Assembly: GCF_002197845.1 (NCBI RefSeq)
Contig: NZ_NIDE01000009.1
Location: 248,001 to 312,000, forward strand
Length of the DNA stretch: 64,000 bases
From: Fimbriiglobus ruber
GTDB taxonomy: Bacteria > Planctomycetota > Planctomycetia > Gemmatales > Gemmataceae
Direction: 5' to 3'
The position numbers were made by a program, and so were the translations under genes. The notes below the pieces were generated by a model, which saw only the letters and a list, made by a program, of their open reading frames with translations, was not told where the DNA came from and searched no databases. Below are positions 4,251 through 30,100 of this stretch, one piece after another. Each line of letters begins with the position of its first letter. The first letter of the stretch is position 1.

Positions 4251-5291
4251 GTGATCGCGCACACCGTCTGGCGGAAGTGGTTGGCCCAATTGAACACCCG
4301 CGGGCGGCGGCCCAGTCCCCGACCGCGGCTCGATGTGACGCCCCTGGAAGACCGCGTGGTGCCGAACGGGACCGTGCAGTTCTCATCCGCCAGCGAGTCG
4401 GTCGACGCGAGTACCGGGGCGTTCAGCATTCCGGTCACGCTCACGGGCCGCACGCCCGATTCCACCCCCAGCACGTTTGCCACCTCGATCGATAATCCCA
4501 CGGGTCTGGCGTTCGACGCGGGCGGAAACCTGTACGTCGCCAATTCCGGCAACAACACGGTGAGCAAGGTGACCCCCGCGGGGGGCGTCAGCACCTTCGC
4601 CTCCGGGTTCGACGGGCCCGACGCTCTGGCGTTCGACGCGGGCGGAAACCTGTACGTCGCCAATTCCGGCAACAACACGGTAAGCGAGGTGACGCCCGCG
4701 GGCGTCGTCACGACCTTCGCCACCGGGCTCGACGGTCCCGACGCGCTGGCGTTCGACGCGGCCGGCAACCTGTTCGCCGCCAGCTTTACAGGTAACTCGG
4801 TGAGCGAGGTGACGCCCGCGGGCGTCGTCACGACCTTCGCCACCGGGTTCGACGGGCCCGACGCTCTGGTGTTCGACGCGGCCGGAAACCTGTACGTCGC
4901 CAACGACGGCAACAACACGGTGAGCGAGGTGACGCCCGCGGGAAACGTCACCACCTTCGCCACCGGGTTCGACGGGCCCGACGCTCTGGTGTTCGACGCG
5001 GCCGGAAACCTGTACGTCGCCAACGACGGCAACAACACGGTGAGCGAGGTGACGCCCGCGGGAAACGTCACCACCTTCGCCACCGGGTTCGACAACCCTG
5101 CTGGTCTGGCGTTCGACGTGACCGGAAACCTGTACGTCGCCAACTACGGCAATAGCACCGTGAGCAAGGTCACGCCCCCGGGGGCAACACCACCTTCGCC
5201 ACCGGGTTCGACTCTCCCACCGATCTGGCATTCGACGCAGCCGGGAACCTGTTCGTTTCCAACTCCGACAATGGCACGGTGGACGAGGTGA
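4251..5291 (+). CDS. SP2, N-terminal part: NHL propeller nested in Calx-beta
   Basis: First part of one about 1329-aa protein (4251-8239). I choose GTG 4251 because GGAG (4240-4243) lies 7 nt upstream; an in-frame ATG at 4176 lacks such a site. The motif LEDRVVP is at residues 32-38. Residues about 39-68 match the first strands of a Calx-beta domain (VQFSSASESV, SIPVTLTG). Then 40-residue (120-bp) NHL/SMP-30-like repeats begin: GFDGPDALAFDAAGNLYVAN followed by NNTVSEVTPAG. The frame is lost in CCCCCGGGGG (5175-5184), where one base is missing relative to every other repeat; the last ~35 residues of this frame are out-of-frame sequence. Inferred role: extracellular repeat protein. Confidence 0.82.
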   Translation: MIAHTVWRKWLAQLNTRGRRPSPRPRLDVTPLEDRVVPNGTVQFSSASESVDASTGAFSIPVTLTGRTPDSTPSTFATSIDNPTGLAFDAGGNLYVANSGNNTVSKVTPAGGVSTFASGFDGPDALAFDAGGNLYVANSGNNTVSEVTPAGVVTTFATGLDGPDALAFDAAGNLFAASFTGNSVSEVTPAGVVTTFATGFDGPDALVFDAAGNLYVANDGNNTVSEVTPAGNVTTFATGFDGPDALVFDAAGNLYVANDGNNTVSEVTPAGNVTTFATGFDNPAGLAFDVTGNLYVANYGNSTVSKVTPPGATPPSPPGSTLPPIWHSTQPGTCSFPTPTMARWTR

Positions 5292-8239
5292 CGCCCGCGG
5301 GCATCGTCACGACCTTCGCCACCGGGTTCGACGGGCCCACCGGTCTGGCGTTCGATGCGGCCGGAAACCTGTTCGTCGCCAACTACGACAATAACAAGGT
5401 GAGCGAGGTGACGCCGGCGGGGTCCGTCAGCACCTTCGCCACCGGATTCGACTTTCCAACCGCTCTGGCGTTCGACGCGGCCGGAAACCTGTATGTCGCC
5501 AACGACGGAAGACCGTACGACACCACCGCCGATGCCACGGTGAGCGAGGTGACGCCCGCGGGCGCCGTCAGCACCTTCGCCTCCGGGTTCGACCGGCCGG
5601 ACGCTCTGGCGTTCGACGCGGCCGGTAACCTGTACGTCGCCAACTTTGCAGGTAATACGGTGAGCGTGGTGACGCCCGCGGGGGTCGCCAGCACCTTCGC
5701 CGCCGGGTTCGACGACCCCACCGCCGTTGCGTTCGACGCGGCCGGCAACCTGTACGTCGCCAACGACGGCAACAACACGGTGAGTGAGGTGACGCCCGCG
5801 GGGGTCGTCAGCACCTTCGCCTCCGGGTTCGACGGGCCCGACGCGCTGGCGTTCGACGCGGCCGGCAACCTGTTCGTTGCCAACGAATCCAGTGTTACGG
5901 TGAGCGAGGTGCCAGCACCGGTCGTCAGCACCTTCGCCACCGGGTTCACCGCGCCCAACGGTCTGGCGTTCGGCGCGGCCGGAAACCTGTTCGTCGCCAA
6001 CGCCGGCAACAACTCGGTGAGCGAGGTGACGCCCGCGGGGGGTATCACCACCTTCGCCACCGGGTTCACCGGGCCCGCCGGTCTGGCGTTCGACGCGGCT
6101 GGAAACCTGTTCGTCACCAACTTCGGTGGTACCACGCTGAGCGAGGTGACGCCCGCGGGCGTCGTGACCACCTTCGCCTCCGAGTTCGACGACCCCGAAG
6201 GTTTGGTGTTCGACGCGGCCGGTAACCTGTACGTCGCCAACTTTGCAGGTAATACGGTGAGCGTGGTGACGCCCGCGGGGGTCGCCAGCACCTTCGCCGC
6301 CGGGTTCGACGACCCCACCGCCGTTGCGTTCGACGCGGCCGGCAACCTGTACGTCGCCAACGACGGCAACAACACGGTGAGTGAGGTGACGCCCGCGGGG
6401 GTCGTCAGCACCTTCGCCTCCGGGTTCGACGGGCCCGACGCGCTGGCGTTCGACGCGGCCGGCAACCTGTACGTCGCCAACCACGATGGTAACACGGTGG
6501 GTGTAGTCACACCCACGGGGTTCGTCGCCACCTTCGCCACCGGGTTCGACGGACCCAGAGCGCTGGCGTTCGACGCGGCCGGCGACCTGTTCGTCGCCAA
6601 CGTCAACAATAATACGGTGAGTCAGCTCTTGGTGCCCAGCGTGAGTGTGCCGTTCACCGTGGGCGGCACGGCCGTTGCGGGAACGGACTACTCCGGGCTG
6701 ACGGCCAGTCCGTTGGTCTTTGCCCCCGGGCAGACGACGGCCGACATCACCGGGACGATGGCACCCGGCAGCGGGGGTACGACGCTGACCGTCACCCTGG
6801 GGACGCCGACCAACGCCGCCTTCAGGGCCACCACGACCAACACCCTGACGATCACGGCACAGGCCCCCGCGGTCACCGCCCTCAGCCCGTCGAACGGCCC
6901 GGCGGGCGGCGGGACGACGGTCACCGTCACCGGGACCAACCTGGCCGCCGCCACGGCCGTCACGTTCGGGACGGTCGCGGGAACGATCGTCAGCGACACG
7001 GCCACCCAGATCGTGGCGACCGCCCCGGCCGGCACCGCGGGAACGGTCGACGTGACGGTGACGACGGCCGGCGGCACGTCGGCCGTGTCGCCCGCGGACC
7101 AGTTTACCTACGCTGCCGTTCCGCCGGTCAGCCCGCCGCCCGTCAGTCCACCACCGGTCAACCCGCCGCCGGTGCCCCCGACCAGCCCGCCACCGGCAAC
7201 CCCCAAGGCTACGCTCGTTGGCTACTCACAAGTCGCGGTGGGGGCGGACGCGGGCGGGACGGGAACCGTCACGGTGTACAACCCGGACCAGTCGGTCGCG
7301 TACACGGCCGCCCCGTTCGGGGCCGCGTTCACTGACGGCGTCCGGGTGGCCGTCGCCGATCTCAACAACGACGGGGCTCCCGAACTGATCGCCGGGACGG
7401 GCCCAGGGGTGGCCAACCAGGTCGTCGTCCTGGACGGCAACACGCACCTGCCCCTCGCCTCGTTCAACCCGTTCGAGACGACGTTCACCGGCGGCCTCTT
7501 CGTGGCCGTCGGGGACGTGAACGGGGACGGGGTTCCGGACCTGATCGTCACCCCCGACCAGTCGGGCGGGCCGATCGTGGCCGTGTACGACGGGGCCGCC
7601 CTCGGGAAGGGACAGGTCGTCCAACTGGCCCGGTTCTTCGGGATCAACGACCCGAACTTCCGGGGCGGGGCCCGGGCGGCGGTCGGGGACATCAACGGGG
7701 ACGGGTACGGCGACGTGATCGTGTCGGCCGGGTTCGGGGGCGGCCCGCGGGTGGCCATCTACGACGGCAAGTCGGTGGCCGCGAACGCCCCGACCGAGTT
7801 GATGCCGGACTTCTTTGCGTTCGAGCCGTCGCTGCGGAACGGGGCGTACGTGACGGCCGGGGACCTGACCGGGAAGGGGTACGCGGACCTGATCTTCGGG
7901 GCCGGCCCGGGCGGCGGTCCGCGGGTCCGGGCGGTCGACCCGGCGGTCCTGCTGGCGGCCGCCGGGGACTTCTCGTCGCTCGACGACGCGGCCGTGTCCG
8001 GGGCGAGTCTGGCGGACTTCTTCGCCGGGGACGTGAGCAACCGGGGCGGGGTGCGGGTCGGGGTCGCCGACCTGGACGCGAGTAACCAGGCGGGCCTGGT
8101 CGTGGGTTCGGGGACGGGGGCCGGGGCGACCGTCACGACGTACACCGGGAAGGCGATCCTGGCCAACCCCGCGGCGCCGACCGCGGACTCCTCGCTCGAC
8201 GCCTTCCCCGGGTTTACCGGCGGCGTCTTCGTGGGCTGA
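5186..8239 (+). CDS. SP2, C-terminal part: NHL repeats, Calx-beta end, TIG, FG-GAP
   Basis: Continuation of SP2 (first ATG in this frame is 5279). NHL repeats run to about nt 6630. The second half of the Calx-beta domain then appears (VPFTVGGTAVAGTDYSG, SPLVFAPGQTT, about 6640-6870), so the propeller sits inside that Ig-like fold. A TIG/IPT domain follows (6870-7110: ALSPSNGPAGGGTTVTVTG), then a Pro-rich linker (PPPVSPPPVNPPPVP), then the FG-GAP/VCBS cassette (7212-8239) ending PGFTGGVFVG. Two blocks of repeats (about 5630-5870 and 6220-6460) are almost identical in DNA, indicating recent duplication of two NHL units. Likely exported; localisation is inferred from domain content only. Confidence 0.87.
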   Translation, partial: NTTFATGFDSPTDLAFDAAGNLFVSNSDNGTVDEVTPAGIVTTFATGFDGPTGLAFDAAGNLFVANYDNNKVSEVTPAGSVSTFATGFDFPTALAFDAAGNLYVANDGRPYDTTADATVSEVTPAGAVSTFASGFDRPDALAFDAAGNLYVANFAGNTVSVVTPAGVASTFAAGFDDPTAVAFDAAGNLYVANDGNNTVSEVTPAGVVSTFASGFDGPDALAFDAAGNLFVANESSVTVSEVPAPVVSTFATGFTAPNGLAFGAAGNLFVANAGNNSVSEVTPAGGITTFATGFTGPAGLAFDAAGNLFVTNFGGTTLSEVTPAGVVTTFASEFDDPEGLVFDAAGNLYVANFAGNTVSVVTPAGVASTFAAGFDDPTAVAFDAAGNLYVANDGNNTVSEVTPAGVVSTFASGFDGPDALAFDAAGNLYVANHDGNTVGVVTPTGFVATFATGFDGPRALAFDAAGDLFVANVNNNTVSQLLVPSVSVPFTVGGTAVAGTDYSGLTASPLVFAPGQTTADITGTMAPGSGGTTLTVTLGTPTNAAFRATTTNTLTITAQAPAVTALSPSNGPAGGGTTVTVTGTNLAAATAVTFGTVAGTIVSDTATQIVATAPAGTAGTVDVTVTTAGGTSAVSPADQFTYAAVPPVSPPPVSPPPVNPPPVPPTSPPPATPKATLVGYSQVAVGADAGGTGTVTVYNPDQSVAYTAAPFGAAFTDGVRVAVADLNNDGAPELIAGTGPGVANQVVVLDGNTHLPLASFNPFETTFTGGLFVAVGDVNGDGVPDLIVTPDQSGGPIVAVYDGAALGKGQVVQLARFFGINDPNFRGGARAAVGDINGDGYGDVIVSAGFGGGPRVAIYDGKSVAANAPTELMPDFFAFEPSLRNGAYVTAGDLTGKGYADLIFGAGPGGGPRVRAVDPAVLLAAAGDFSSLDDAAVSGASLADFFAGDVSNRGGVRVGVADLDASNQAGLVVGSGTGAGATVTTYTGKAILANPAAPTADSSLDAFPGFTGGVFVG

Positions 8240-14249: not shown

Positions 14250-15968
14250 ATGAGTCACTCTCTCATCGATTTTCTCCGCACGGCCGGCGGGCCATCGCCC
14301 GACCGGGCGGAGGCACTATGGGTGCGCTACCGTGAGACCGACGACGAAGCCGCTTTCACAACCCTCGTAGGGTGGTACGGAAGCGGCATCTACCGCAGGA
14401 TTCTGATCGCCACCGGGTTCGACCACCTGTTGGCCGAAGAGGTCTTTCAGACCACGTTGTTTAAACTCCACGAGCGGAGAAAGGTTCTCGCCTGTCCGAC
14501 TTTTACGGCGGCCCTGGCGTGGTGGCGGGTGACGGCCCGTAACGAAGTTCAGATGGCCCTGCGGGGCCGGCGGCGAGCCCGAGCCAGGGAGGAGCGGGTC
14601 GCCCGAAATCCCGCAATCGACGCCACCCCGGGCGCCGAGACCGAAGTTCTTCGGGCCGAATTGCTCACCGAACTCGGGACCGCGTTCAGCCGCCTCCGCC
14701 CCGAACACCGAGAAACCCTCTCACTGCTCTATTTTGAAAATCTTCCCGTATCCCGAGCGGCCGCGATTCTCGGCCGCAATCGGGAAACTGTCTCCCGGTG
14801 GGCCGAGCAGGGGTTGAGCTGCCTCCGCGATTTGCTCGCCGCGCGGGGCGTTTTGTCGGCGGCCGGAGGAGTGGCAGCCGCCCGACTTGTCTTGACCGAT
14901 GCGGTCCAGGCGGCAGTGCCAACCGTCCGGATCGCAGAATTTGCAACCGCGGCTTGGACTGCGAAGCCTGCGGGTACCTCGTTTCTGGCTGCCGGGTGGG
15001 TCAAAAAGGTCGCGGGTGTGCTTGGCGTGGTGGCTTTTGGGTGCGTTGTGGCCATTGGATGGCAGCTCGAACGAAGCGAGCCCCCGGCGCCCTCGCTCCC
15101 TAATCCTCCCGCCGCCCGAGCCGAGGACATCCCGCAGCGGAATTTGCATCTGTTCCACTTGGTGGTTACACCACGGATCCGAGCGGCACTCGCCGATCTG
15201 CTGACAGGCGACGGTGATGTGGTGCTTGAAGCGGTAGAGACATACGATACGCGGATTTTTTGTACGTTCAGCTTCAAGCATAAACTCCCTACCCCGCTGA
15301 CCTGGGTGCCACGGGTCCGGTTCATCTACGAAGCTCATGGACAGACGTTTCAGAGTAGCTTCGATCTCCACGAATGGGAGTACGATACTCCGGAATTCAA
15401 TCCGATCTTTATCCCCGAAAGCGAGGGTCGGATTTGGGATCGGCAAACGTTCTTGGAAATCGACCGACGCCGGCCGGACCTACCCAAAGGTGCGAGGCCT
15501 CGGTGGCGCAACCCGACGACCGAACGGACGTGGCCGGTCGACTCGATCCGAGGTGTCCTCACGCGCGTCGAGTCCGCGTTCCGGCTGATCCCGGCCGACC
15601 GGGAGACGGCGGCAGAAAAGGCGGCGACCGACGACCGGTTGAAAGCGGCGATCCGGCCCCACCTGGGGATATGGTACGGGCGGGGGCGACAGGATTTGCC
15701 GTGCGAACTTTCGGACAGCCCGGACGGACTCGTCTTGAAGCGCGGGTACAACTGGTCGCGGACCGTCAAAAAGGTACCGGCACCGGCGGTTTGCGGGAAC
15801 TGGTGGGTGCGCGTTCGGTCGGATGGCGCGCCGTCCGGACTGTTCACATGGGGGTTGACGGTCCGGTTCTCGCCGGACGGCCGGCGGATCAATTTCCCCG
15901 AGAGTGGCGACTGGTGGACGCGCGAGCCGATCCCCGAGCCCCAGAAGCAACGCCCCGACAAACCTTGA
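14250..15968 (+). CDS. Membrane-anchored ECF sigma factor with C-terminal sensor-like domain (copy 1)
   Basis: 572 aa, about three times the length of an ordinary ECF sigma factor. Residues 35-105 fit sigma region 2 (EAAFTTLVGWYG, EEVFQTTLFKLHER) and 135-195 fit region 4 (LRPEHRETLSLLYFENL, helix-turn-helix around AAILGRNRETVSRW). Residues 200-250 are an Ala-rich linker, 252-272 a single hydrophobic segment (VLGVVAFGCVVAIGW), and 295-572 a domain I cannot assign (RNLHLFH, TPLTWVPRVRFIYE, GIWYGRGRQDLPCE, SGDWWTREP). Expected topology: sigma domains in the cytoplasm, unknown domain outside. No anti-sigma gene is adjacent, so regulation may lie within the protein. It is followed after 147 nt by SP4. 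A paralogue is at 22343-24058. Confidence 0.88.
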   Translation: MSHSLIDFLRTAGGPSPDRAEALWVRYRETDDEAAFTTLVGWYGSGIYRRILIATGFDHLLAEEVFQTTLFKLHERRKVLACPTFTAALAWWRVTARNEVQMALRGRRRARAREERVARNPAIDATPGAETEVLRAELLTELGTAFSRLRPEHRETLSLLYFENLPVSRAAAILGRNRETVSRWAEQGLSCLRDLLAARGVLSAAGGVAAARLVLTDAVQAAVPTVRIAEFATAAWTAKPAGTSFLAAGWVKKVAGVLGVVAFGCVVAIGWQLERSEPPAPSLPNPPAARAEDIPQRNLHLFHLVVTPRIRAALADLLTGDGDVVLEAVETYDTRIFCTFSFKHKLPTPLTWVPRVRFIYEAHGQTFQSSFDLHEWEYDTPEFNPIFIPESEGRIWDRQTFLEIDRRRPDLPKGARPRWRNPTTERTWPVDSIRGVLTRVESAFRLIPADRETAAEKAATDDRLKAAIRPHLGIWYGRGRQDLPCELSDSPDGLVLKRGYNWSRTVKKVPAPAVCGNWWVRVRSDGAPSGLFTWGLTVRFSPDGRRINFPESGDWWTREPIPEPQKQRPDKP

Positions 15969-16115
15969 CGATTTACTGGGATAGGGAGCGGAAAAACTGT
16001 TCGTCCCTTGGCAGTCCGGAAGCGTGCCTCCGCAGTAACCCGGTAAGCGGGCGCGTCCGGCCCGATGCGCCAACGAGAGTATCGGGGCACACATCATTAA
16101 TTCCAGGAAGACATT
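15969..16115 (+). promoter_or_regulatory. Conserved 147-nt spacer between sigma gene 1 and SP4
   Basis: This spacer and the one at 24059-24205 have exactly the same length and are mostly identical, including TACTGGGATAGGGAGCGGAA, CTCCGCAGTAACCCGGTAAG and CAGGAAGAC just before the start codon. CCGC and GCGG in the central block can pair. AGGAAG (16105-16110) is the ribosome-binding site, 5 nt from ATG 16116. Conservation of a non-coding stretch between two otherwise divergent downstream genes suggests a promoter or leader, but it could also just reflect recent duplication. Confidence 0.6.
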
Positions 16116-19100
16116 ATGTTTTCGCTTCTAACCAATTGGATGAGCGGTCCGAGAAAAAATACAACCCGGCGCCAAAAGTCTCATCGTTTCAGGCCCATTG
16201 TTGAAAGACTCGACGATCGATTGGCGCCGGCCGCACCGGCGGTGTCAGCGATCAGTCCGTCGTCCGGGCCGGCCGCCGGGGGGACGACGGTCACCATCAC
16301 CGGGTCGAACCTGTTGGGTGGTGGTACGACGACGCTCGACCAACCGGGGTATGCGTCGACTTATCTCAGCGGAGTTAGCGGGGGCGATGTGGTCGGGTAC
16401 TCTCAATCCAGTAGTGGGACTATCACTGGGTTCAAGTATGACGGATCGACATTCACCTCGATCAACGACCCGAACGGTTCGAGCACCGATCCAATTGGCG
16501 TCAATGGAAACACGATCGTTGGACTCTATACGGCACCAGGCGGTCTGCTGGGACAGAGTCGGGGGTTCGAAGATGTCGGGGGGGTGTTCACGGATGTGGC
16601 CGACCCAGCGGGTACGGGGACCACGCCGCGTGGCGTCAGTGGGAACACGATCATCGGGTATTACATCAACTCGTCCGGCGTCGAGGTCGGTTTCGATGAT
16701 GTCGGCGGAACATACATCGATATCATCGACCCGACTCCCGGTGTGAAAGGAACTTTCCCGCTCGGTATCAGCGGCACTACTGTGGTCGGGTATTACAAAG
16801 ATTCCAGCAACCACCAACATGGCTTCATTTTCGACGGGCACACATACACCACCGTCGACGACCCTGACCCGGCGGCCAACTACGGCACCGTTTTGACCGG
16901 GATCAGCGGGGGCAATTACGTCGGGTACTATCTGTCCGAGGCCCAAAACGGCACGATCAGCAACGGCGCTTTAGCGTACAACGGGTCGACGTTCACTGAT
17001 TTGACATTCCCGATTGTTGATCTCCAGATCAGCGCCCAGGCTTCCAGCGTGAGCGATCAGCTTGTGGTTGGGAATTATACTAGTTTAAATTCCGTGACGC
17101 ACGGCTTTATCCTCGGACAGAACGTCAGCTTTGGGTCGGTCGTCGGCACCATCGTCAGCGATAACGGTTCGCAGATCGTGGCGACAGCCCCGGCAGGCAC
17201 GGCTGGAGCGTCGGTGGACGTGACGATGGCGACGACCGCCGGATTATCGACTCCGTCCGCAACCGACAAGTATACGTATGTGGCCACCGTTCCAGAAGTC
17301 ACTAGCATCAGCCCAAGTTCCGGCACAGTCGCAGGAGGAACTACCGTCACCATCACCGGGACCAACCTCGGCGGTGCCACGGCCGTCACTTTCGGCGGGA
17401 CGGCTGCCACCATTCTCTCCGACTCGGCCACCCAACTGGTTGTCACGGACCCGGCTGGCGCGGCGGGGACAGTGGATGTCGTCGTGACCACCTCCGGAGG
17501 CACCTCGCAGGCCGAGACGGCTGACAAGTTCACCTACCAGTCCGCCGCTCCGTACGTCACGTCCATCAACCCTTCGGTTGGCCCGACCGCCGGGGGAACG
17601 ACCGTGACACTTACTGGGACCGGCTTGGCCGGAGCCACCGCAGTGACGTTCGGCGGGACGTCCGCCACCATCGTCAGTGACTCGGCCAGCCAGATCGTCG
17701 TCACGACGCCGCCTGGGGCGGCCGGGATCGCCGATGTCCTTGTCACCACCTCGGCCGGGACTTCGGCCGGTTCACCCGCGTACGCCTTCGTTTACACGGC
17801 CCCTACTGGTCCGACCGTGGCCAGCGTCAGCCCGAGTTCGGGGCCGGCGGCCGGCGGAACCACCATCACGATTGCCGGGACCAACCTCGGCGGTGCCACG
17901 GCCGTCACTTTCGGCGGGACGACTGCCACCATTCTCTCCGACTCGGCCACCCAGCTGGTTGTCACGGACCCGGCTGGCGCAACGGGAACAGTGGATGTCG
18001 TCGTGACCACCCAGGCCGGTTCATCGCAGACGGGGGCAACCGACAAGTTCACTTATCAAGCCCCACTTCCGGTCGTGACCGGGGTCAGTCCGGGGAGTGG
18101 GCCGGCCACCGGCGGAATTACCGTAACCCTGACCGGAACCGACCTCGACGCGGCGACCACTGTAGACTTTAACAGCACACCGGCCACCATCGTGAGCGGC
18201 ACCGCAACCCAGCTCGTCGTTACCGTTCCGGCGGGGACGGCCGGGAATGCGGCTTACGTTACGGTCACAACCCCGGCCGGGACTTCGGCCGTGACCTCAG
18301 CTGATTACTTTACATATACCGCCCCAGCTCCCGTCATCACGGGGGTCAGCCCAAGTCTTGGTACCGCGGGGACGACGGTAACAGTCACCGGGCTCTATCT
18401 GAACGGGGCGGTGGGTGTCCAGTTCGGCGCCCTGGGAAATTTGGGTACGGCGACCATTCTCAGTGACACGGCGACTCAAATCGTGGTCACCGCCCCGACC
18501 GAGTCGCCGGGAACGGTGGACATCCGGGTCGAAAACTCCCTCGCCATCTCGGCCGTCACTCAGGCTGATCAGTACACCTATGCGGGGGTTCCCAACGTGA
18601 CGGTGGTCAGTCCAGCAAATGGGCCGGCATCCGGGGGAAATAGTGTCACCCTCACCGGGACCGATTTGGGAGGTGCCTCGGCCGTCTACTTCGGCGGCAC
18701 CCCCGGCACGATTGTCAGTGACTCGGCCACACAACTCGTCGCCACAGCCCCAGCCGGGACGGCTGGGTCCGGTCTGTTCGTGACCGTGACGACTCCGGGC
18801 GGCACGTCGGGGGATTTCGCGTCGGCGATGTACACCTACCAGACGGCCACGTCCCCACCCGCTCCGGCCCCGACCGTGACGGGAATTAGCCCGTCGTCCG
18901 GGTCGACGGTCGGCGGAACCCTTGTGACCATCGCCGGGACGGGTCTGGGGAACGCCACGGCCGTGGCGTTCGGCGGGACGGCCGGGACGATCGTGTCCGA
19001 CTCGGCCACCCAGATCGTGGCCGCCGCACCGGCCGGGGCCGCCGGGACAGTGTTTGTGACCGTGACTACCCCGGGCGGCACGTCGGGGGACCTCGCGGCA

Positions 19101-22058
19101 GCGGCGTACACCTACCAGACGGCAACTTCTCCTCCCGCCCCGGCCCCGACGGTGACGGGTATCAGCCCGTCGTTCGGGTCCACGGCCGGCGGGATTCTGG
19201 TCACGATCACCGGGACGGATCTGGGGAACGCCACGGCCGTGGCGTTCGGTGGGATCGGTGGGACGATCGTGTCCGACAACGCCACCCAAGTCGTGGCCAT
19301 CGCCCCGGCCGGAACGGCGGGGCCGGTGGACGTAACCGTGTTCACCGCAGCCGGCACGTCTGCGACCGGGCCCAACCAATTCACGTACGTCAGCCCGCCG
19401 CCGGCCGCTCCGAGCGTGACGGGCATCAGCCCGTCGTCCGGGTCGACGGCCGGCGGAACCCTAGTGACCATCATCGGGACGGACTTGGGGAACGCCACCG
19501 CCGTCGCGTTCGGCGGGATCGGCGGGACGATCGTGTCTGACAGCGCCACCCAGATCATGGCCACCGCACCGGCCGGGGCGGCGGGGGCAGTAAATGTGAC
19601 CGTGTTTACCGCAGCCGGTACGTCGGCGACCGGGCCCGACCCATTCACGTACGTCAGCCCGCCACCGATGGCCCCGACGGTGGCGGGGATCAGCCCATCG
19701 TCCGGGTCGACGGTCGGCGGAACCCTTGTGACCATCGCCGGGACGGGTCTGGGGAACGCCACGGCCGTGGCGTTCGGCGGGACGGCCGGGACGATCGTGT
19801 CCGACTCGGCCACCCAGATCGTGGCCGCCGCACCGGCCGGGGCCGCCGGGACAGTGTTTGTGACCGTGACTACCCCGGGCGGCACGTCGGGGGACCTCGC
19901 GGCAGCGGCGTACACCTACCAGACGGCAACTTCTCCTCCCGCCCCGGCCCCGACGGTGACGGGTATCAGCCCGTCGTTCGGGTCCACGGCCGGCGGGATT
20001 CTGGTCACGATCACCGGGACGGATCTGGGGAACGCCACGGCCGTGGCGTTCGGTGGGATCGGTGGGACGATCGTGTCCGACAACGCCACCCAAGTCGTGG
20101 CCATCGCCCCGGCCGGAACGGCGGGGCCGGTGGACGTAACCGTGTTCACCGCAGCCGGCACGTCTGCGACCGGGCCCAACCAATTCACGTACGTCAGCCC
20201 GCCGCCGGCCGCTCCGAGCGTGACGGGCATCAGCCCGTCGTCCGGGTCGACGGCCGGCGGAACCCTAGTGACCATCATCGGGACGGACTTGGGGAACGCC
20301 ACCGCCGTCGCGTTCGGCGGGATCGGCGGGACGATCGTGTCTGACAGCGCCACCCAGATCATGGCCACCGCACCGGCCGGGGCGGCGGGGGCAGTAAATG
20401 TGACCGTGTTTACCGCAGCCGGTACGTCGGCGACCGGGCTCGACCCATTCACGTACGTCAGCCCGCCACCGACGGCCCCGACGGTGGCGGGGGTTAGTCC
20501 ATCGTCCGGGTCCGCGGCGGGCGGAACCCTCGTGACGATCACCGGGGCGGGTCTGGCGAACGCCACGGCCGTCGCGTTCGGGGGGACGGCCGGGACGATC
20601 GTGAGTGACACGCTTACCCAGATCGTGGCCACCGCCCCGGCCGGTGTAGCCGGAACCGTAGACGTCGCCGTGACGACCGCTGGCGGCACCTCCGCGACCA
20701 GCACCGCCGACCAGTTCACGTATCTCATTATGGTCAGCCCGCCGCCGCCCGCCCCGGCCGTGACGGGGATCAGCCCGTCGTCCGGACCCACGGCAGGCGG
20801 AACCCTCGTGACGATCACTGGGTCGGGACTGGCGAACGCCACGGTCGTCGCGTTCGGGGGGGCGGCCGGCACGATCGTGAGCGACACTGCTACCCAGATT
20901 GTAGCCGCCGCCCCAGCCGGGGCGACGGGTACGGTGGACGTGGCTGTGTTCACCGCTGGCGGCACCTCGGCCGCCTCGACCGCCGACCACTTCACGTACA
21001 CTGCTCCCCCGGTCTCACGACCGCCGTCTTCCGTCCTCGTCGGTGCCTCCCAATTCGCCGTCGGGGCCGACGCCGGCGGGGTCCCGCTCGTCGAGTCGTT
21101 CAACGCCAATCAGACCCCGGTCCTCGGGGCGACGTCCGCGTTCGCGTCGTCGTTCACCGGCGGGGCCCGGGTCGTGGCCGCCGACTTCAACAACGACGGG
21201 GTCGCTGACATCGCCGTCGGGACCGGCCCGGGGGGCCCGAACGAGGTGACTATCCTGGACGGCAAGACGGGGGCCGTGATCACCACCTTCCAGCCGTTCG
21301 AGGCCTCGTTCACCGGGGGCATCTTCGTGGCCGCCGGGGACATCACCGGGGACGGCATCCCGGACCTGATCGTGACCCCCGACCAGACCGGCGGACCGGT
21401 CGTCGCCGTGTACGACGGGACCAAACTGGTCGAGGGCCTGGCGTCCGGTCAGCCCAACGGCCAGCCGGCCCAGATCAACCGCTTCTTCGGGATCCAGGAC
21501 CCGAACTTCCGGGGCGGGGCGCGGGCCGCCGCCGGCGACATCAACGGGGACGGGGTGGCCGACATCGTGGTCTCGGCCGGGTTCAGCGGAGGCCCGCGGA
21601 TCGCCGGGTTCGACGGGAAATCGGTCGCGTCCGGTGTGGCCGACCCGACCAAGCTGTTCGCCGACTTCTTCGCGTTCGAGCCGTCCCTGACGAATGGGGC
21701 GTACGTGGCCGTCGGAGACATCAACGGGGACGGGCACGCTGACGTGATCGCCGGCGGCGGACCGGGTGGCGGACCGCGGGTGACCGTATTCGACGGGGCG
21801 GCTCTCCTGTCGAACACCCAGACGCCGGTCGCCGACTTCTTCGCCGGGGACCCGAGCAACCGCGGGGGGGTGCGGGTGGCTGTCAAGGACCTGGACGGGA
21901 CCGCGGACGCGGGTCTGGTGGTCGGGTCGGGGACCGGAGCTGGGGCGACCGTCACCGGGTACACTGGGAAGGCGATCCTGGCCGACCCGGGGTCGCCCAC
22001 ATCTTTGTTCTCGCTCGACGCCTTCCCCGGATTTACCGGCGGCGTCTTTGTCGGGTAA
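16116..22058 (+). CDS. SP4, giant TIG/IPT-repeat surface protein with HAF insert and FG-GAP end
   Basis: 1980 aa, intact. ATG 16116 has AGGAAG 5 nt upstream. LDDRLAP is at residues 32-38. A TIG/IPT domain starts (AISPSSGPAAGGTTVTITG) but breaks off near residue 68. About 265 residues of HAF-type repeats follow (VVGYSQSSSG, GNTIVGLYTAPGG, TTVVGYYKDSSNHQHGF), and the same TIG domain resumes at VSFGSVVGTIVSDNGSQIVA. Fourteen more TIG/IPT domains follow (about 85 residues each). Then comes the FG-GAP/VCBS propeller (from about nt 21030; DFNNDGVADI, DITGDGIPDL, DINGDGVADI, DINGDGHADV), ending PGFTGGVFVG. An 804-bp internal duplication spans three TIG domains. The first ~10 residues equal those of SP5. 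Likely extracellular stalk-and-propeller protein controlled with the upstream sigma gene (inference). Confidence 0.9.
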   Translation: MFSLLTNWMSGPRKNTTRRQKSHRFRPIVERLDDRLAPAAPAVSAISPSSGPAAGGTTVTITGSNLLGGGTTTLDQPGYASTYLSGVSGGDVVGYSQSSSGTITGFKYDGSTFTSINDPNGSSTDPIGVNGNTIVGLYTAPGGLLGQSRGFEDVGGVFTDVADPAGTGTTPRGVSGNTIIGYYINSSGVEVGFDDVGGTYIDIIDPTPGVKGTFPLGISGTTVVGYYKDSSNHQHGFIFDGHTYTTVDDPDPAANYGTVLTGISGGNYVGYYLSEAQNGTISNGALAYNGSTFTDLTFPIVDLQISAQASSVSDQLVVGNYTSLNSVTHGFILGQNVSFGSVVGTIVSDNGSQIVATAPAGTAGASVDVTMATTAGLSTPSATDKYTYVATVPEVTSISPSSGTVAGGTTVTITGTNLGGATAVTFGGTAATILSDSATQLVVTDPAGAAGTVDVVVTTSGGTSQAETADKFTYQSAAPYVTSINPSVGPTAGGTTVTLTGTGLAGATAVTFGGTSATIVSDSASQIVVTTPPGAAGIADVLVTTSAGTSAGSPAYAFVYTAPTGPTVASVSPSSGPAAGGTTITIAGTNLGGATAVTFGGTTATILSDSATQLVVTDPAGATGTVDVVVTTQAGSSQTGATDKFTYQAPLPVVTGVSPGSGPATGGITVTLTGTDLDAATTVDFNSTPATIVSGTATQLVVTVPAGTAGNAAYVTVTTPAGTSAVTSADYFTYTAPAPVITGVSPSLGTAGTTVTVTGLYLNGAVGVQFGALGNLGTATILSDTATQIVVTAPTESPGTVDIRVENSLAISAVTQADQYTYAGVPNVTVVSPANGPASGGNSVTLTGTDLGGASAVYFGGTPGTIVSDSATQLVATAPAGTAGSGLFVTVTTPGGTSGDFASAMYTYQTATSPPAPAPTVTGISPSSGSTVGGTLVTIAGTGLGNATAVAFGGTAGTIVSDSATQIVAAAPAGAAGTVFVTVTTPGGTSGDLAAAAYTYQTATSPPAPAPTVTGISPSFGSTAGGILVTITGTDLGNATAVAFGGIGGTIVSDNATQVVAIAPAGTAGPVDVTVFTAAGTSATGPNQFTYVSPPPAAPSVTGISPSSGSTAGGTLVTIIGTDLGNATAVAFGGIGGTIVSDSATQIMATAPAGAAGAVNVTVFTAAGTSATGPDPFTYVSPPPMAPTVAGISPSSGSTVGGTLVTIAGTGLGNATAVAFGGTAGTIVSDSATQIVAAAPAGAAGTVFVTVTTPGGTSGDLAAAAYTYQTATSPPAPAPTVTGISPSFGSTAGGILVTITGTDLGNATAVAFGGIGGTIVSDNATQVVAIAPAGTAGPVDVTVFTAAGTSATGPNQFTYVSPPPAAPSVTGISPSSGSTAGGTLVTIIGTDLGNATAVAFGGIGGTIVSDSATQIMATAPAGAAGAVNVTVFTAAGTSATGLDPFTYVSPPPTAPTVAGVSPSSGSAAGGTLVTITGAGLANATAVAFGGTAGTIVSDTLTQIVATAPAGVAGTVDVAVTTAGGTSATSTADQFTYLIMVSPPPPAPAVTGISPSSGPTAGGTLVTITGSGLANATVVAFGGAAGTIVSDTATQIVAAAPAGATGTVDVAVFTAGGTSAASTADHFTYTAPPVSRPPSSVLVGASQFAVGADAGGVPLVESFNANQTPVLGATSAFASSFTGGARVVAADFNNDGVADIAVGTGPGGPNEVTILDGKTGAVITTFQPFEASFTGGIFVAAGDITGDGIPDLIVTPDQTGGPVVAVYDGTKLVEGLASGQPNGQPAQINRFFGIQDPNFRGGARAAAGDINGDGVADIVVSAGFSGGPRIAGFDGKSVASGVADPTKLFADFFAFEPSLTNGAYVAVGDINGDGHADVIAGGGPGGGPRVTVFDGAALLSNTQTPVADFFAGDPSNRGGVRVAVKDLDGTADAGLVVGSGTGAGATVTGYTGKAILADPGSPTSLFSLDAFPGFTGGVFVG
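18897..20504 (+). repeat. 804-bp tandem duplication inside SP4
   Basis: Sequence from 18897 recurs from 19701 with an offset of exactly 804 bp (268 codons, three TIG/IPT domains) and very few differences (for example CGGGCCCGACC versus CGGGCTCGACC). The near-identity shows a recent in-frame duplication. Confidence 0.88.
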
Positions 22059-22123
22059 AGCGAAGGAAAAGCACTCGGAACAAATAGCTGGTTCTCCCCG
22101 GAAGCACCCGTCTTTTCCTCCCC

Positions 22124-22150: not shown

Positions 22151-22291
22151 TGAGCCCGTACATTTATATTCTGGATAATGACAGATTAAAAAGTGGCAAG
22201 TCTCGAACGTTCCTTGAGACGCACTGCTTGGGTTGCTAACTGCGCAGGGGTGTACCGGCCGAGGATTTATTTTTATTTCGATCCGGCAAAT

Positions 22292-22316
22292 GGAACGCCG
22301 GCGGCATTTTATTGTC
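22292..22316 (+). promoter_or_regulatory. Candidate ECF-type promoter of sigma gene 2
   Basis: GGAAC (22292-22296) is followed after 17 nt by GTC (22314-22316), the spacing of a typical ECF promoter (GGAAC-N16/17-GTC), 27 nt before the ATG at 22343. The matching place upstream of copy 1 reads GGACT with a poorer -10, so the signal is not strictly conserved. If real it would suggest autoregulation; the short leader makes this tentative. Confidence 0.3.
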
Positions 22317-22342
22317 GGAAAGCCCGGACTTCTGGATCCCGC

Positions 22343-24058
22343 ATGAGTCATTCCCTCATCGATTTTCTCCGTACGGCTGGCGGACCATCGCCGGACCGGG
22401 CTGACGTGTTATGGGCTCGTTACCGCGACACGGGTGACGAGGACGCGTTCTCAATCCTCGTGGGATGGTACGGGAACGGCATCTACCGCCGGATTTTCAT
22501 CGCCTCCGGGTTCGATCACTCGCTGGCCGAGGAGGTCTTTCAGATCACGTTGTTCAAGTTGCACGAGCGGCGGCGGACCCTCGCCTGTCCGACGTTCGAC
22601 GCCGCGTTAGCGTGGTGGCGGGCGACAGCCGGGAATGAGGTCCGGATAACTCTCCGGGGGCGCCGGCGTGCCCGAACGCGGGAGGCCGAGGTCGCCCGGA
22701 ACCCCGCCACCGACGTTACCGCGGATGCCGAGACCGAGGTTCTTCGGGCCGAACTGCTTGCGGAACTCGGGACGGCGTTCAACCGCCTCCGCCCGGAACA
22801 ACAGGAAACCCTTGCCCTCCTCTATTTTGAAAATCTTTCCGAATCCCGGACGGCCGAGGTTCTCGGCCGGCACCGGGAGACCGTCTCCAGATGGGCCAAA
22901 CAAGGGTTAGAGCGACTTCGCGATTTGCTCGCGGCCCGGGGGGTGTTGTCGGCCGCCGGGGGGGCGTCGGCGGCCGAGGTCGTCCTGACCGACGCGGCCC
23001 GGGCTGCGACGCTGCCCGCGGCCCGGATCGCGGACATGATGGCCGCGGCTTGGACTGCGAATCCCGCGGGCGCGCCGCTTGCGGCCGCCGGGTGGGCGAA
23101 AAAGATCGTCGTCGTGTCCATGGCGGCGGTGGTCAGCGGCGGTGCGATCGCCGGGTGGCCGCGCGACCGACGCGAGCCCCCGCCGGCCGCAACCCCCGTC
23201 GCCGCTCAGGCCGCGAGCGTGCCGCGGCGGAATTTGCACCTGTTCCACTCGGAGGTCGTACCACGGCTCCGGGCAGCACTCGGCGGCTTCCTGACCGGCG
23301 ACGGCAACGTGACCCTCGAAAACGTCGAGGCATACGACACGAGAATCTTCTGTGCTTTTTCCTTAAATCACAAACTCCCGGTCCCACTGACGTGGGCACC
23401 ACGGGTCCGGTTCATTTACGAAACTCATGAGCAGACGTTTCAAAGCAGCTTGGACCTCCACGACTGGAACCACGACGCGCCGGAAATCAAGTGGATTTTT
23501 ATTTCCGAAAGTCCTGACCGGATCTGGGACCCGGAAACATTCCTGGAGGTCGACACCCGGCGGCCGGATCTGCCCATGTCCGCCAGACAAATGTGGTGCA
23601 ACCCGACGACCGGGCGGAGGTGGCCGGTCGATTCGATCCGTGACATCCTTGTCCAGGTCGAATCTGCATTTCGGCTAATCCCTGCCGACCAGGAAACGGC
23701 GGCGGAAAAGGCTGCGACCGACGGCCGTGTAGCGGTGGCGATCCGGCCCTACTTGGGGGTGTGGTACGGGCGGGGGCGACAGGATTTGCCGTGCGAACTC
23801 TCGGACGGCCCGGACAGACTCGTCTTGACGCGCGCGTACTACTGGTCGCGGACCGTCAAAAAGATGCCGTCACCGGCGCTTCGCGGGAACTGGTGGGTGC
23901 GCGTCCAGTCGGACGGCGCGCCGTCCGGACTGTTCACATGGGGAGTGACGGCCCGGTTCTCACCCGATCGCCGGCGGATCGATTTCCCCGAGAGCGGCGA
24001 CTGGTGGACGCGGGAGCCGCTTCCCGAGCCCCAGAAGCAACGTCCCGGCAAACCCTGA
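22343..24058 (+). CDS. Membrane-anchored ECF sigma factor with C-terminal sensor-like domain (copy 2)
   Basis: 571 aa from ATG 22343, the position equivalent to the copy 1 start (MSHSLIDFLRTAGGPSPDRA in both). A longer open frame from 22193 has no counterpart in copy 1. The architecture is the same: region 2 (EDAFSILVGWYG, EEVFQITLFKLHERR), region 4 (LRPEQQETLALLYFENL, AEVLGRHRETVSRW), Ala-rich linker, hydrophobic segment around residue 255-272 (VVVSMAAVVSGGAIAGW) and the same unassigned C-terminal domain (RNLHLFHSEV, TWAPRVRFIYE, GVWYGRGRQDLPCE). High similarity to copy 1 throughout shows a segmental duplication. It is followed after 147 nt by SP5. Confidence 0.88.
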   Translation: MSHSLIDFLRTAGGPSPDRADVLWARYRDTGDEDAFSILVGWYGNGIYRRIFIASGFDHSLAEEVFQITLFKLHERRRTLACPTFDAALAWWRATAGNEVRITLRGRRRARTREAEVARNPATDVTADAETEVLRAELLAELGTAFNRLRPEQQETLALLYFENLSESRTAEVLGRHRETVSRWAKQGLERLRDLLAARGVLSAAGGASAAEVVLTDAARAATLPAARIADMMAAAWTANPAGAPLAAAGWAKKIVVVSMAAVVSGGAIAGWPRDRREPPPAATPVAAQAASVPRRNLHLFHSEVVPRLRAALGGFLTGDGNVTLENVEAYDTRIFCAFSLNHKLPVPLTWAPRVRFIYETHEQTFQSSLDLHDWNHDAPEIKWIFISESPDRIWDPETFLEVDTRRPDLPMSARQMWCNPTTGRRWPVDSIRDILVQVESAFRLIPADQETAAEKAATDGRVAVAIRPYLGVWYGRGRQDLPCELSDGPDRLVLTRAYYWSRTVKKMPSPALRGNWWVRVQSDGAPSGLFTWGVTARFSPDRRRIDFPESGDWWTREPLPEPQKQRPGKP

Positions 24059-24205: not shown

Positions 24206-25981
24206 ATGTTTTCGCTTTTAACCAGCTGGATGTCCCGTCCGAAATCCGGCACGATGCGGCGATTCGGGTCGGCTAATAATGTCGACCGCCGCCGGTCGAC
24301 AGTCCCCGTGTCGCTGGGCGTCTTGGAACTGGACAGCCGCATCGTTCCCGCCGCCACCGTGCAATTCAATACCGGCAGCGAAACCGTTGCCGCGACCGCC
24401 GGGACGTTCAGCATCCCGGTTACGCTCTCGGGGGCTCCATCGCCGACCGTCACGACCTTCGCGTCCGGGTTTACGGGACCCGAGGGTGTTGCGTTCGATG
24501 CGGCCGGTAATCTATACGTGGCCGACACCTTTGCCGATACGGTGGATAAGGTGACGCCGGGCGGGGTGGTCAGCACGTTCGCATCCGGGATTACGGCGCC
24601 CGAGGCTCTGGCGTTTAATGCGGCCGGGAACCTGTACGTCACCGGCGACGGAGTTCTCAGCGTTGGTGCGGTATACCAGGTGACGCCGGGCGGGGTGATC
24701 AGCACGTTCGCGTCCGGGTTTGCGGAATCAGCCGGGAACCCACCCAGGGGGTTGGCGTTCGATGCGGCCGGGAACCTGTACGTGGCCGACACTTTTGCCG
24801 GTCGGGTCGATAAGGTGACGCCGGGCGGGGTGGTCAGCACGTTCGCGTCCGGATTTCCTGACCCCGCCGGCCTGGCGTTCGATGCGGCCGGGAACTTGTA
24901 CGTGGCCGATGGCACCGCCAACAGGGTAGATAAGGTGACCCCGAACGGAGTGGTCAGCACGTTTACCTCCGGGGTCAACAGCCCGTACGGTCTGGCGATC
25001 GACGCCGGCGGCGACCTCTACGTGACTGCTTACGATCCGGGCAGCACGGGCGCCGACTTGGTGGACAAGGTGACACCGGGCGGGGTGGTCAGTACGTTCG
25101 CGTCCGGGTTCCTGAACGCTGCCGCTTTGGCGTTCGATGCGTCCGGGAACCTGTACGCCGCCGACTCGGCCGCCGGCACGATAAACCAAATCGGCACCGC
25201 GGTACCGATCCCGTTCACCCTCGGCGGGACGGCTGTCGCCGGGACCGATTACAGCGGCGTCACGACGAGCCCGCTGGTGTTCGCGGCCGGGCAGACGACC
25301 GCCACCATCACCGGCACCCTGGCCCCCGGGAGCGGGGGCAAGACGCTGACCATCACCCTAGTTCCGCCGACCAACGCAACCCTCGGCAGCCCTTCGACCA
25401 ACACGCTGACGATTAGTGCGGTTCCCCCGCCGCCGCCGGCGGCCCCCACTCTCACAAGTATCAGTCCCGCATCCGGCCCGACGGCCGGTGGCACCACGGT
25501 CACCATCACCGGGACCGACCTGGGCAACGCCACGGCGGTCGCGTTCGGCGGGGTGGCCGGGGCGATCGTGTCCGACACGGCCACCCAGATCGTGGCCACC
25601 GCCCCGGTTGAGTCTGCGGGTGTCGTGGACGTGACCGTGACCACCGCGGGCGGGACGTCCGTTACCTCGTCCGCCGACCAGTTCACCTACGCGATCCCTC
25701 CGACCGTTCAGTTCGTTGCCGGGAGCGAGACGACCGCGGCAGGGAGTGGGACGTTCCGTGTTCAGGTTAGCCTTTCAGCCCCGTGGACCCCGACCGTGGC
25801 TACCGTCGCGTCCGGGTTCACGAACCCGTCCGGTTTAGCGTTCGATACCGCCGGCAACTTGTACATGGCCGACGCGTCCGCGAACACGATCAGCAAAATC
25901 GTGCCGGGGGGAACCGTCACGACGTTCGCGACCGGACTCGCCGGTCCGGACGGGCTAGCGTTCGATACCGCCGGCAACCTA
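24206..25981 (+). CDS. SP5, N-terminal part, interrupted by IS630
   Basis: First 592 codons of a protein that would be about 1862 aa without the insertion element. LDSRIVP is at residues 42-48; the first residues (MFSLLT-WMS) equal SP4. Calx-beta first half (VQFNTGSETVAATAG, SIPVTLSG) is followed by NHL repeats (24446-25190: GLAFDAAGNLYVADT). The Calx-beta second half (PFTLGGTAVAGTDYSG) is at 25200-25420, and a TIG/IPT domain (SISPASGPTAGGTTVTITG) at 25440-25690. A second Calx-beta first half (VQFVAGSETTAAGSG) and a second NHL set then run into the insertion at AGNL. In the present DNA the frame continues 66 nt into the element and stops at 26047, so the product is truncated and lacks the FG-GAP cassette. 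Confidence 0.85.
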
Positions 25982-26080
25982 TTCTCGGACTCGCCTGAAG
26001 TGACACAAGTCGGCCTTGAGCAACCAGGCCTGGATAGCGGAGGATAGATCCTTCACCGATCCGTCTGCGGGAGGGCAAGG

Positions 26081-27155: not shown

Positions 27156-30100
27156 TACGTGGCCAATACCGGGGACGGGACGGTCAGCCGGATCACCCCG
27201 GCGGGCGTCGTCACGACGTTCGCGACCGGGTTCACGGTTCCATCCGGCCTGGCGTTCGACGCAGCCGGCAACTTGTACGTGGCCGACTCGACCGCAAACA
27301 CCGTCAGCCGGGTCACCCCGGCGGGCATAGTCTCGACGTACGCGTCCGGGTTCAGCGCGCCCGTCGGACTGGTATTCGATGCGGCCGGCGACCTGTACGT
27401 GGTCAATGATGGTCTCGGGAACGTGAGTGAGGTGACCCCGGCGGGAGTGGTTACAACGTTCGCGTCCGGATTCGCTGGTGCTGACGGCTTGACATCCGAC
27501 GCGGCCGGAAACTTGTATGTCTCAAATTATGTGACCGGCACGGTTAACGCGGTGTCTCCGGCCGGTGTGGTCACGACTTACGCGACCGGGTTCTCCGGAC
27601 CCGTCGGCCTGGCGTTCGACGCGGCCGGTCGTTTGTACGTGGCCAACTACAAGGCCGGGACGTTGAGTATGGCTACGGCGGTAACCGCGACCGTTCCGTT
27701 CACGCTGGGCGGGACGGCCGTCGCCGGGACCGACTACAGCGGGGTGACGGCCAGCCCACTGGTGTTCGCACCCGGGCAGACGACCGCCGACATCGCCGGA
27801 ACCCTGGCGCCCGGGAGCGGGGGCCAGACGCTGACCGTGACCCTGGGGACGCCGACCAACGCAACCCTCGGAGCCACCACGACCAACACGCTGATGGTCC
27901 TGCCGCCGACGCCCGCCGTGACCGGCCTCAGCCCGTCGTCCGGGCCGACCACCGGGGGCACCACGGTCACCATAACGGGAACCAGCCTGGGCAACGCCAC
28001 GGCAGTTGCGTTCGGCGGGGTGGTCGGGGCGATCGTGTCCGACACCCCGACCCAGATCGTGGCCACCGCCCCGACCGGGACCGTGGGGACGGTCGACGCG
28101 ACCGTGACCACCGCGGGCGGAACGACCATTACCTCGGCCGCCGACCAATTCACGTACTTCGCGCTCCCCGCGAGTCCTCCCCCTGCAAGTTTGCCCCCCG
28201 CGAGTCCGCCCCCGACCAGTCAAGCCGTGTCGGCCCCGGCTGGCGGGACGGCACCCGTCAGCTTGACGGCGACCGGGGCCGATACCGGCGGGGCGCCCAT
28301 TGTGTGGGTGTATAACGCCGACGGGTCGCCGCGGTTTTCCATCATGGCTTACGATCCGACGTTTACCGGCGGGGTCCGAGTGGCCGTCGGGGACGTCAAC
28401 GGCGACGGTATCCCGGATATTATCACCGTTCCCGGGCCCGGCGGCGGACCAATCGTCAAGGTCTTCAGCGGGGTCGACGGGACGCTGCTGCAGACCTTCG
28501 CCGCACTGGACGGGAAATTCACTGGTGGTTTGTATGTGGCGGCCGGGGATTTCAATGGCGACGGGCACGCGGACATCGTGACGTCGGCCGACATCGGCGG
28601 CGGCCCCCGCGTGACGGTGTACAACGGCAGTGACGATTCCGTCATGGCCGACTTTTTCGGGATCGCCGACCCGAATTTCCGGGGCGGCGCTCGGGTCGCG
28701 GTCGGAGACATCAATTACGACGGGGTGCCCGATTTGATCGTGGCCGCCGGATTCGGCGGCGGGCCCCGCGTGACCATCTATGACGGCCGTGAGATCGCGG
28801 CGGCCGGCGGGGGTACACCCGCCGGGACTGCCCTAGCGAACTTCTTTGCGTTCGAGCAGACACTTCGGAATGGGGTTTACGTCGGGTCTGGGGATTTGAC
28901 CGACGGCGGCTTCGCCGACCTCGTCTTCGGTGCCGGCCCCGGCGGTGCCCCTCGGGTCCGGGTGATCGACGGGCAGCAGCTCCTGGCGGCGAGTAACTTT
29001 AGCGACCTGGACACGGCCGTGGCCGCCAACCCGGCGATGCAGGTAGCGAACTTCTTCGCCGGCGACCCGAGCAGCCGGGTCGGCGTTCGGGTGGGCATCG
29101 CGGACGGCAGCAGCGGGACGGCCGACATTCTAACCTCCCCCGGGACGGGCGGGGGCAGCGCTGTCAGCATGTACAACGCAGCCGGTACCGTGGTCGGTAC
29201 CGAAAACCCGTTTCCGGGGTTCACGGGCGGGTCGTTCGTGGACGGGTCCGAGGATCCGACTCAGGCTCTCTTCGCCCGGGGCACGTCGGCACCGCTCGGT
29301 CAACTCGTCATCCGCGGCCAGTTCGTAACCGGGGTTCCGACGGAGGTCGTTTTCGCGGACAATGAGGGGTACCGCGTCGTCGTTCAACCGGCGATCGTGA
29401 CCACTACCCGGGTATCGGTCGGGGTACCGGTTTACGTGAATCCGAGTACCGGCCAGGTCGGGGCGTCCGGTCCGGACCTGACGGTCTCGGTGATCCAGAC
29501 TTTCAACGGCGGGCAGGTGGTCACCGCCTCGATTCCGTACCAAATCACCGCGCCGACCCCGGTCGCCGGCACCCCGGGAACGCTGACAACGGCGTACCTG
29601 ACGGCCCTCCAGAACTTGGCTGACAACGCGATTCAGGGCGTGCAGCGCGTCGGAGCCGCCACCCCCGGGGCGGGCGGGACAGCCATCAGCGGATTGACCC
29701 AACAACTGGCGGCCGTCAAACAAACCCTGGCGACACTAGCGTCGCAGATTCAACAACTGATGTCCGGCCAAATCGCCAGCATCCCTCTCGGGACGGTGAA
29801 TGGTGCCCAGATCGTCTTGACTGTAGCCGAACTGGCACTGCTCGACGCACTCATCGGGAACCTGCTCCAGAGCGCCGGGTTTGACATCGGTGGCGATCCG
29901 AATCAGATTCTCACGAATTTGATCGCATGGTTGGAGAATGGCCAAACCAAGACGGATGGAACTGCCGGCGGCTGGTCGCCATTGCCGCTAATAACGGCCG
30001 GCCCGGCACTCGGGGGCGGCATCAACGTAAGCAAGAACGGGGCCGAAGGGGCCGCCGCGATTGTCGACAACGCATCTGTACCCATCGGGGATGCGGCCGA

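Follow-up and report, generated by a model that had tools for sequence, protein, structure and literature searches.

A predicted HAF-like propeller domain interrupts the first TIG domain of a modular protein in Fimbriiglobus ruber

Results

Gene and domain layout of SP4

The window (the whole stretch of Fimbriiglobus ruber DNA analyzed here, 64,000 nucleotides in length) carries on its forward strand the gene for SP4, a modular protein of 1,980 residues. A Pfam scan of SP4 returned 15 significant TIG stretches and a C-terminal FG-GAP region, and profile scans with Pfam and TIGRFAM gave no match to a PEP-CTERM signal. The features of the gene are listed below in window coordinates.

16105..16110, + strand: Shine-Dalgarno-like AGGAAG, 5 bases 5′ of the SP4 ATG, read directly
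16116..22058, + strand: SP4, 1,980 aa, modular; basic N-terminal motif, TIG1 with the predicted propeller, 14 more TIG domains, C-terminal FG-GAP domain
16116..16235, + strand: residues 1-40 of SP4 (N-terminal segment), carrying the RPxxExLDDRLAPA motif; paralogues in the same genome begin with variants of it
16236..16325, + strand: TIG1 N-terminal half, residues 41-70, strands A, A′ and B (Pfam TIG positions 1-26; strands predicted)
16326..17123, + strand: inserted HAF-like domain, residues 71-336, 266 aa, in frame; six repeats, predicted six-bladed beta-propeller
16326..16451, + strand: propeller repeat 1, residues 71-112 (predicted structure)
16452..16583, + strand: propeller repeat 2, residues 113-156 (predicted structure)
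16584..16709, + strand: propeller repeat 3, residues 157-198 (predicted structure)
16710..16844, + strand: propeller repeat 4, residues 199-243 (predicted structure)
16845..16991, + strand: propeller repeat 5, residues 244-292 (predicted structure)
16992..17120, + strand: propeller repeat 6, residues 293-335 (predicted structure)
17124..17285, + strand: TIG1 C-terminal half, residues 337-390, strands C, C′, E, F and G (Pfam TIG positions 35-84; window TIG profile; strands predicted)
17286..21005, + strand: TIG2 to TIG15, tandem and uninterrupted (Pfam)
21023..22058, + strand: SP4 C-terminal FG-GAP domain (Pfam), common to dozens of proteins of the same genome

Within the TIG row, TIG8-10 recur as a tandem copy, TIG11-13 (window 18866-20472; 803 bp, 99.3% identical, with 6 mismatches, five of them at the first edge).

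TIG1 consists of two complementary halves

The original prediction, made from the DNA letters, placed a HAF-repeat propeller of about 265 residues inside the first TIG domain of SP4. Our analysis confirmed the interruption and supports the nesting: TIG1 breaks off after residue 70, an insert of 266 residues (71-336) follows, and TIG1 resumes at residue 337. Scored separately against the Pfam TIG profile (PF01833; curated cutoff, 20.9 bits), the N-terminal half gave 36.1 bits over profile positions 1-26, and the C-terminal half gave 16.0 bits over positions 35-84, which is below the cutoff. Joined in silico, the two halves yielded a single full-length match (positions 1-84 of 84) at 49.6 bits, above the cutoff; a domain search with the HAF segment removed thus gave the one complete TIG match across the junction that had been anticipated. 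On the same scale, the intact TIG2 scored 69.6 bits, and the single intact TIG domains of three other window proteins scored 45.6 to 58.1 bits. We also built a window-specific profile from the 17 intact TIG domains of the window, each being left out in turn for its own score. Against this profile, the N-terminal half scored 37.1 bits (positions 1-28), the C-terminal half 59.2 bits (positions 33-84), and the joined domain 95.1 bits (positions 1-84), whereas the N-terminal half followed by a shuffled C-terminal half reached 38.2 bits at best. The joined score lies inside the range of the intact domains left out in turn (71.6 to 126.5 bits), which argues that TIG1 has not decayed. Because it is also approximately the sum of the scores of the halves, it demonstrates TIG homology and complementarity, not contact between the halves.

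As the original prediction had stated, the halves align with the uninterrupted TIG domains of SP4. In a MAFFT alignment, nine intact TIG domains match TIG1 on both sides of the insert with one clean gap, located between NL-GGATA and VTFG, and the halves are up to 64 to 73% identical to intact TIG domains. The edges of the insert are uncertain by about 3 to 5 residues, with GGGTT and ILGQN readable either way. In uncut SP4, the Pfam TIG match continues from the N-terminal half into the propeller, and annotation can for this reason miss split domains.

The insert is a complete HAF-like domain

Against TIGR02913 (HAF repeat; curated cutoff, 22.65 bits), the inserted segment scored 16.8 bits and the whole of SP4 scored 12.2 bits. 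Since the segment falls below the cutoff, we call it HAF-like: the name "HAF repeats" originally proposed stands by homology but not by the score of the segment itself. One relative of the insert (L072) clears the cutoff with 34.1 bits, and another (L069) scored 21.3 bits. No Pfam family matched the segment at E ≤ 1. The domain is single copy in the 12.4-Mb genome by both sequence search and profile search. Matches were detected in 19 of 248 genomes of the class and 5 of 294 genomes of the phylum, the genome itself being included in each count. A collection-wide locus scan recovered zero relatives with the insert sequence alone and seven loci with a two-row alignment (from Planctomycetes, Verrucomicrobia, and related MAGs). 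Among the sources of relatives are a Gemmataceae MAG and other planctomycetes.

The relatives whose proteins were read are stand-alone, mostly of ~310 to 520 residues, and bear PEP-CTERM or signal-peptide sequences, many of them PEP-CTERM. No TIG domain was found in the seven relatives scanned with Pfam, nor by eye in the others read. The best relatives match residues 2-262 of the 266 inserted residues, from the start of the mature protein to the last blade, just before the PEP-CTERM signal; because the match runs from first blade to last, the guest corresponds to one complete domain. Over the domain as a whole, identity to these best relatives reaches only about 45%, and no recent donor was identified. 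The insert shares the repeat GISGNxVVGYY...HGFxYDGSTFTTIDxP with the HAF-repeat proteins of TIGR02913 and with the HAF-like PEP-CTERM proteins (L033/G131 and L068-L074). Most of these proteins contain six or seven repeats, and they match the insert over its full length at about 30 to 45% identity. Whereas these proteins are stand-alone and exported, the SP4 domain has no signal peptide, anchor, or PEP-CTERM of its own and sits inside a TIG domain.

Predicted structure of the propeller and its host domain

We predicted the structure with AlphaFold2, using in a first run an alignment of seven propeller relatives and no TIG rows. The model of the insert has 24 strands, four in each of six groups, and a pLDDT near 90 over most of its length; the insert is thus predicted to fold as a six-bladed beta-propeller with approximately four antiparallel strands per blade. 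Foldseek matched the propeller model to six-bladed propellers, such as Pizza6 and the RSL and AAL lectins. VIA-align gave Z scores of about 20 to 22 and rmsd values of 3.0 to 3.9 over 240 to 266 aligned residues (model residues 24-306), the top rows being mostly sialidases; the matches listed were propellers throughout, and the listing is uninformative about the TIG domain. We rejected a sialidase (GH33) identity for the insert, as there was no sequence-family match and the likeness to sialidases is one of fold only. A PDB sequence search with the insert alignment returned one weak match to a choline-binding protein and nothing else.

In this first run, the pLDDT of TIG1 was about 37 to 47, and the intact control TIG2 was also poorly predicted (about 40 to 82), which makes the run uninformative about the split of TIG1. 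A second run combined four propeller rows with three tandem-TIG rows spanning the insert. The row set was chosen by screening for alignments with both the propeller and TIG in register, since mixed alignments often misplaced one of them, and this selection is a source of bias. In the resulting model, whose alignment presupposes the split, the mean pLDDT was 86.9, TIG1 comprised strands at residues 42-47, 50-52, 58-64, 336-339, 345-349, 353-357, 366-373, and 385-389, and the intact TIG2 had the same eight strands in the same sequence contexts. The pLDDT was 75 to 91 in the TIG1 halves and 84 to 96 in TIG2. Corresponding TIG1 and TIG2 strands were offset by 352 on the N-terminal side of the insert and, for strands 1 to 3 of the C-terminal half, by 87; the difference amounts to 265 inserted residues, in agreement with the length originally proposed. 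The insert sits between strand B, which ends at residue 64, and strand C, which starts at residue 336, with essentially no TIG residues lost. Structure prediction, the check suggested at the outset, therefore returned a six-bladed propeller and, in both halves, TIG strands matching those of TIG2, the latter from an alignment with TIG rows that presupposes the split.

These models bear on whether the propeller disrupted TIG1, leaving the halves as linker remnants that do not fold together and the propeller as simply an N-terminal head joined to TIG2. The halves were not predicted as a sandwich when TIG rows were absent from the alignment, and a protein with 14 other TIG domains may tolerate the loss of one. 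However, the halves keep TIG sequence at the identities given above and score inside the intact range, without sign of decay, and with TIG rows all eight TIG1 strands were predicted, including the short A′. In Ig-like folds, strand A′ pairs with strand G, which in TIG1 comes from the other half. We therefore regard disruption as unlikely; most likely, the two halves fold as one Ig-like sandwich, with which the predicted strands are compatible.

Origin of the split domain

We consider it likely that the first TIG domain of SP4, probably a secreted or surface protein, took a whole HAF-like six-bladed propeller, derived from a stand-alone exported protein, into its B-C loop. Because the first and last strands of a closed propeller lie side by side, the guest would hang from the loop without pulling the host TIG apart, and both halves of TIG1 would still fold together around it. 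The GC content at third codon positions (GC3) is 0.68 in the insert versus 0.83 and 0.76 in the N- and C-terminal halves of TIG1, respectively. The lower value is in line with a separate origin, yet it falls within the spread seen across the window, where other stretches are similar in codon usage. Searches of relatives, of the genus, and via the flanking sigma-factor gene yielded no empty-site orthologue. The best match to the joined TIG domains (57%), a paralogue on contig C4, was rejected as an empty-site orthologue, since it contains two intact TIG domains and is otherwise unrelated upstream. The direction of the event (insertion into SP4 rather than loss elsewhere) accordingly rests on the 14 intact TIG domains of SP4 and the many in paralogues.

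Could the halves instead stem from two different truncated TIG domains that recombination brought to the two flanks of a propeller gene? Recombination among paralogues is extensive in this genome: the last 1,040 bp of SP4 (window 21023-22062) are 92% identical to a gene on contig C5 (L094) and 90% identical to one on C4 (L095), with unrelated upstream parts. Halves produced by independent truncations, however, would seldom abut to within about 4 profile positions (1-28 and 33-84) without overlap or loss, which makes this origin highly improbable; even if it were true, the present product would still be the same split TIG. An assembly artifact that wrongly joined a stand-alone propeller gene inside SP4 would fit the stand-alone status of HAF-like domains elsewhere and the lower GC of the insert than of its flanks, but it is scarcely credible for a segment that is in frame at both ends, lacks a signal peptide and PEP-CTERM, is situated in a loop, and is present as a single copy in the assembly.

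Comparison with nested and stalked propellers

Insertion of the propeller into TIG1, the first domain after the N-terminal motif, would make it the N-terminal tip of a fifteen-domain TIG row that terminates in FG-GAP. Most likely, this row serves as a stalk that would display a ligand-binding or adhesive propeller head. The top Foldseek matches of the second model were Met and plexin ectodomains, in which a Sema propeller head is followed by a PSI and IPT/TIG stalk. The likeness lies in the head-plus-IPT-stalk arrangement; the Sema propeller comes ahead of the IPT domains in the linear order of the chain, whereas that of SP4 is nested. The Sema propeller has seven blades, compared with the six predicted for the SP4 insert. 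A binding or adhesive head is our best guess because of this analogy and because propellers commonly bind ligands. It is also conceivable, although quite improbable, that the split TIG is more than a passive carrier and works as a sensor or latch, with propeller binding or stalk tension passing through the B-C loop by mechanical coupling to the host TIG.

Nested ligand-binding domains are familiar from integrins, in which the beta I domain sits in an Ig-like hybrid domain. The integrin alpha I domain is a vWFA domain that interrupts the alpha-subunit beta-propeller between its blades 2 and 3 (PMC12422189). As in SP4, a complete domain, in integrins one that binds ligands, occupies a surface loop of an extracellular host domain; integrins are nevertheless unrelated to SP4, in which the propeller is the guest and TIG the host. 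We found no description of a propeller inside a TIG domain in the literature searched, which covers only part of the field, and no such arrangement in the relatives searched. Domain insertion is a well-known kind of event, and the pairing of propeller guest with TIG host is an unusual new combination of known parts. SP4 offers a clean natural case of a closed propeller as guest in an Ig-like domain, for which the intact sister TIG domains of the protein itself serve as built-in controls, and thus lends itself well to testing domain-insertion rules and split-domain detection.

Paralogues and genomic context

The tandem TIG and FG-GAP paralogues of SP4 (for example, window 5279-8239, L090, and L091) resemble it in their TIG domains, in a C-terminal FG-GAP domain homologous to that of SP4, and in the N-terminal motif, of which they carry variants. 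In the TIG and FG-GAP paralogues of the same genome, the TIG domains are uninterrupted, and the NHL repeats of 5279-8239 precede TIG, in contrast to the propeller inside TIG in SP4. Three window genes (5279-8239, 24206-26047, and 27159-30968) encode NHL-type propeller repeats and one intact TIG domain, with the main propeller repeats preceding TIG. Dozens of proteins in the genome possess an SP4-type C-terminal FG-GAP domain (150 match rows), and from sequence comparison this C terminus looks like a constant cassette with variable fronts. Cassette exchange appears to be active, as judged from the near-identical FG-GAP ends with unrelated fronts and the TIG8-10 duplication at 99%. Domain shuffling has been reported in the Gemmataceae (PMC8567305), and the SP4 genome is in line with this. 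SP4 illustrates how a genome of the Gemmataceae type may assemble surface proteins by cassette exchange.

SP4 is flanked by two sigma-70 region 4 paralogues (14250-15968 and 22193-24058) that are 71% identical over their last 323 residues. A TIG gene on contig C5 (L091) likewise has sequence related to these sigma-factor genes next to it, suggesting that sigma-factor and surface-protein pairs may be repeated in the genome. Elsewhere in the window, a 2,285-residue open reading frame (37047-43904) contains a near-perfect 282-bp tandem repeat of 3.7 copies with 98% matches (41228-42265).
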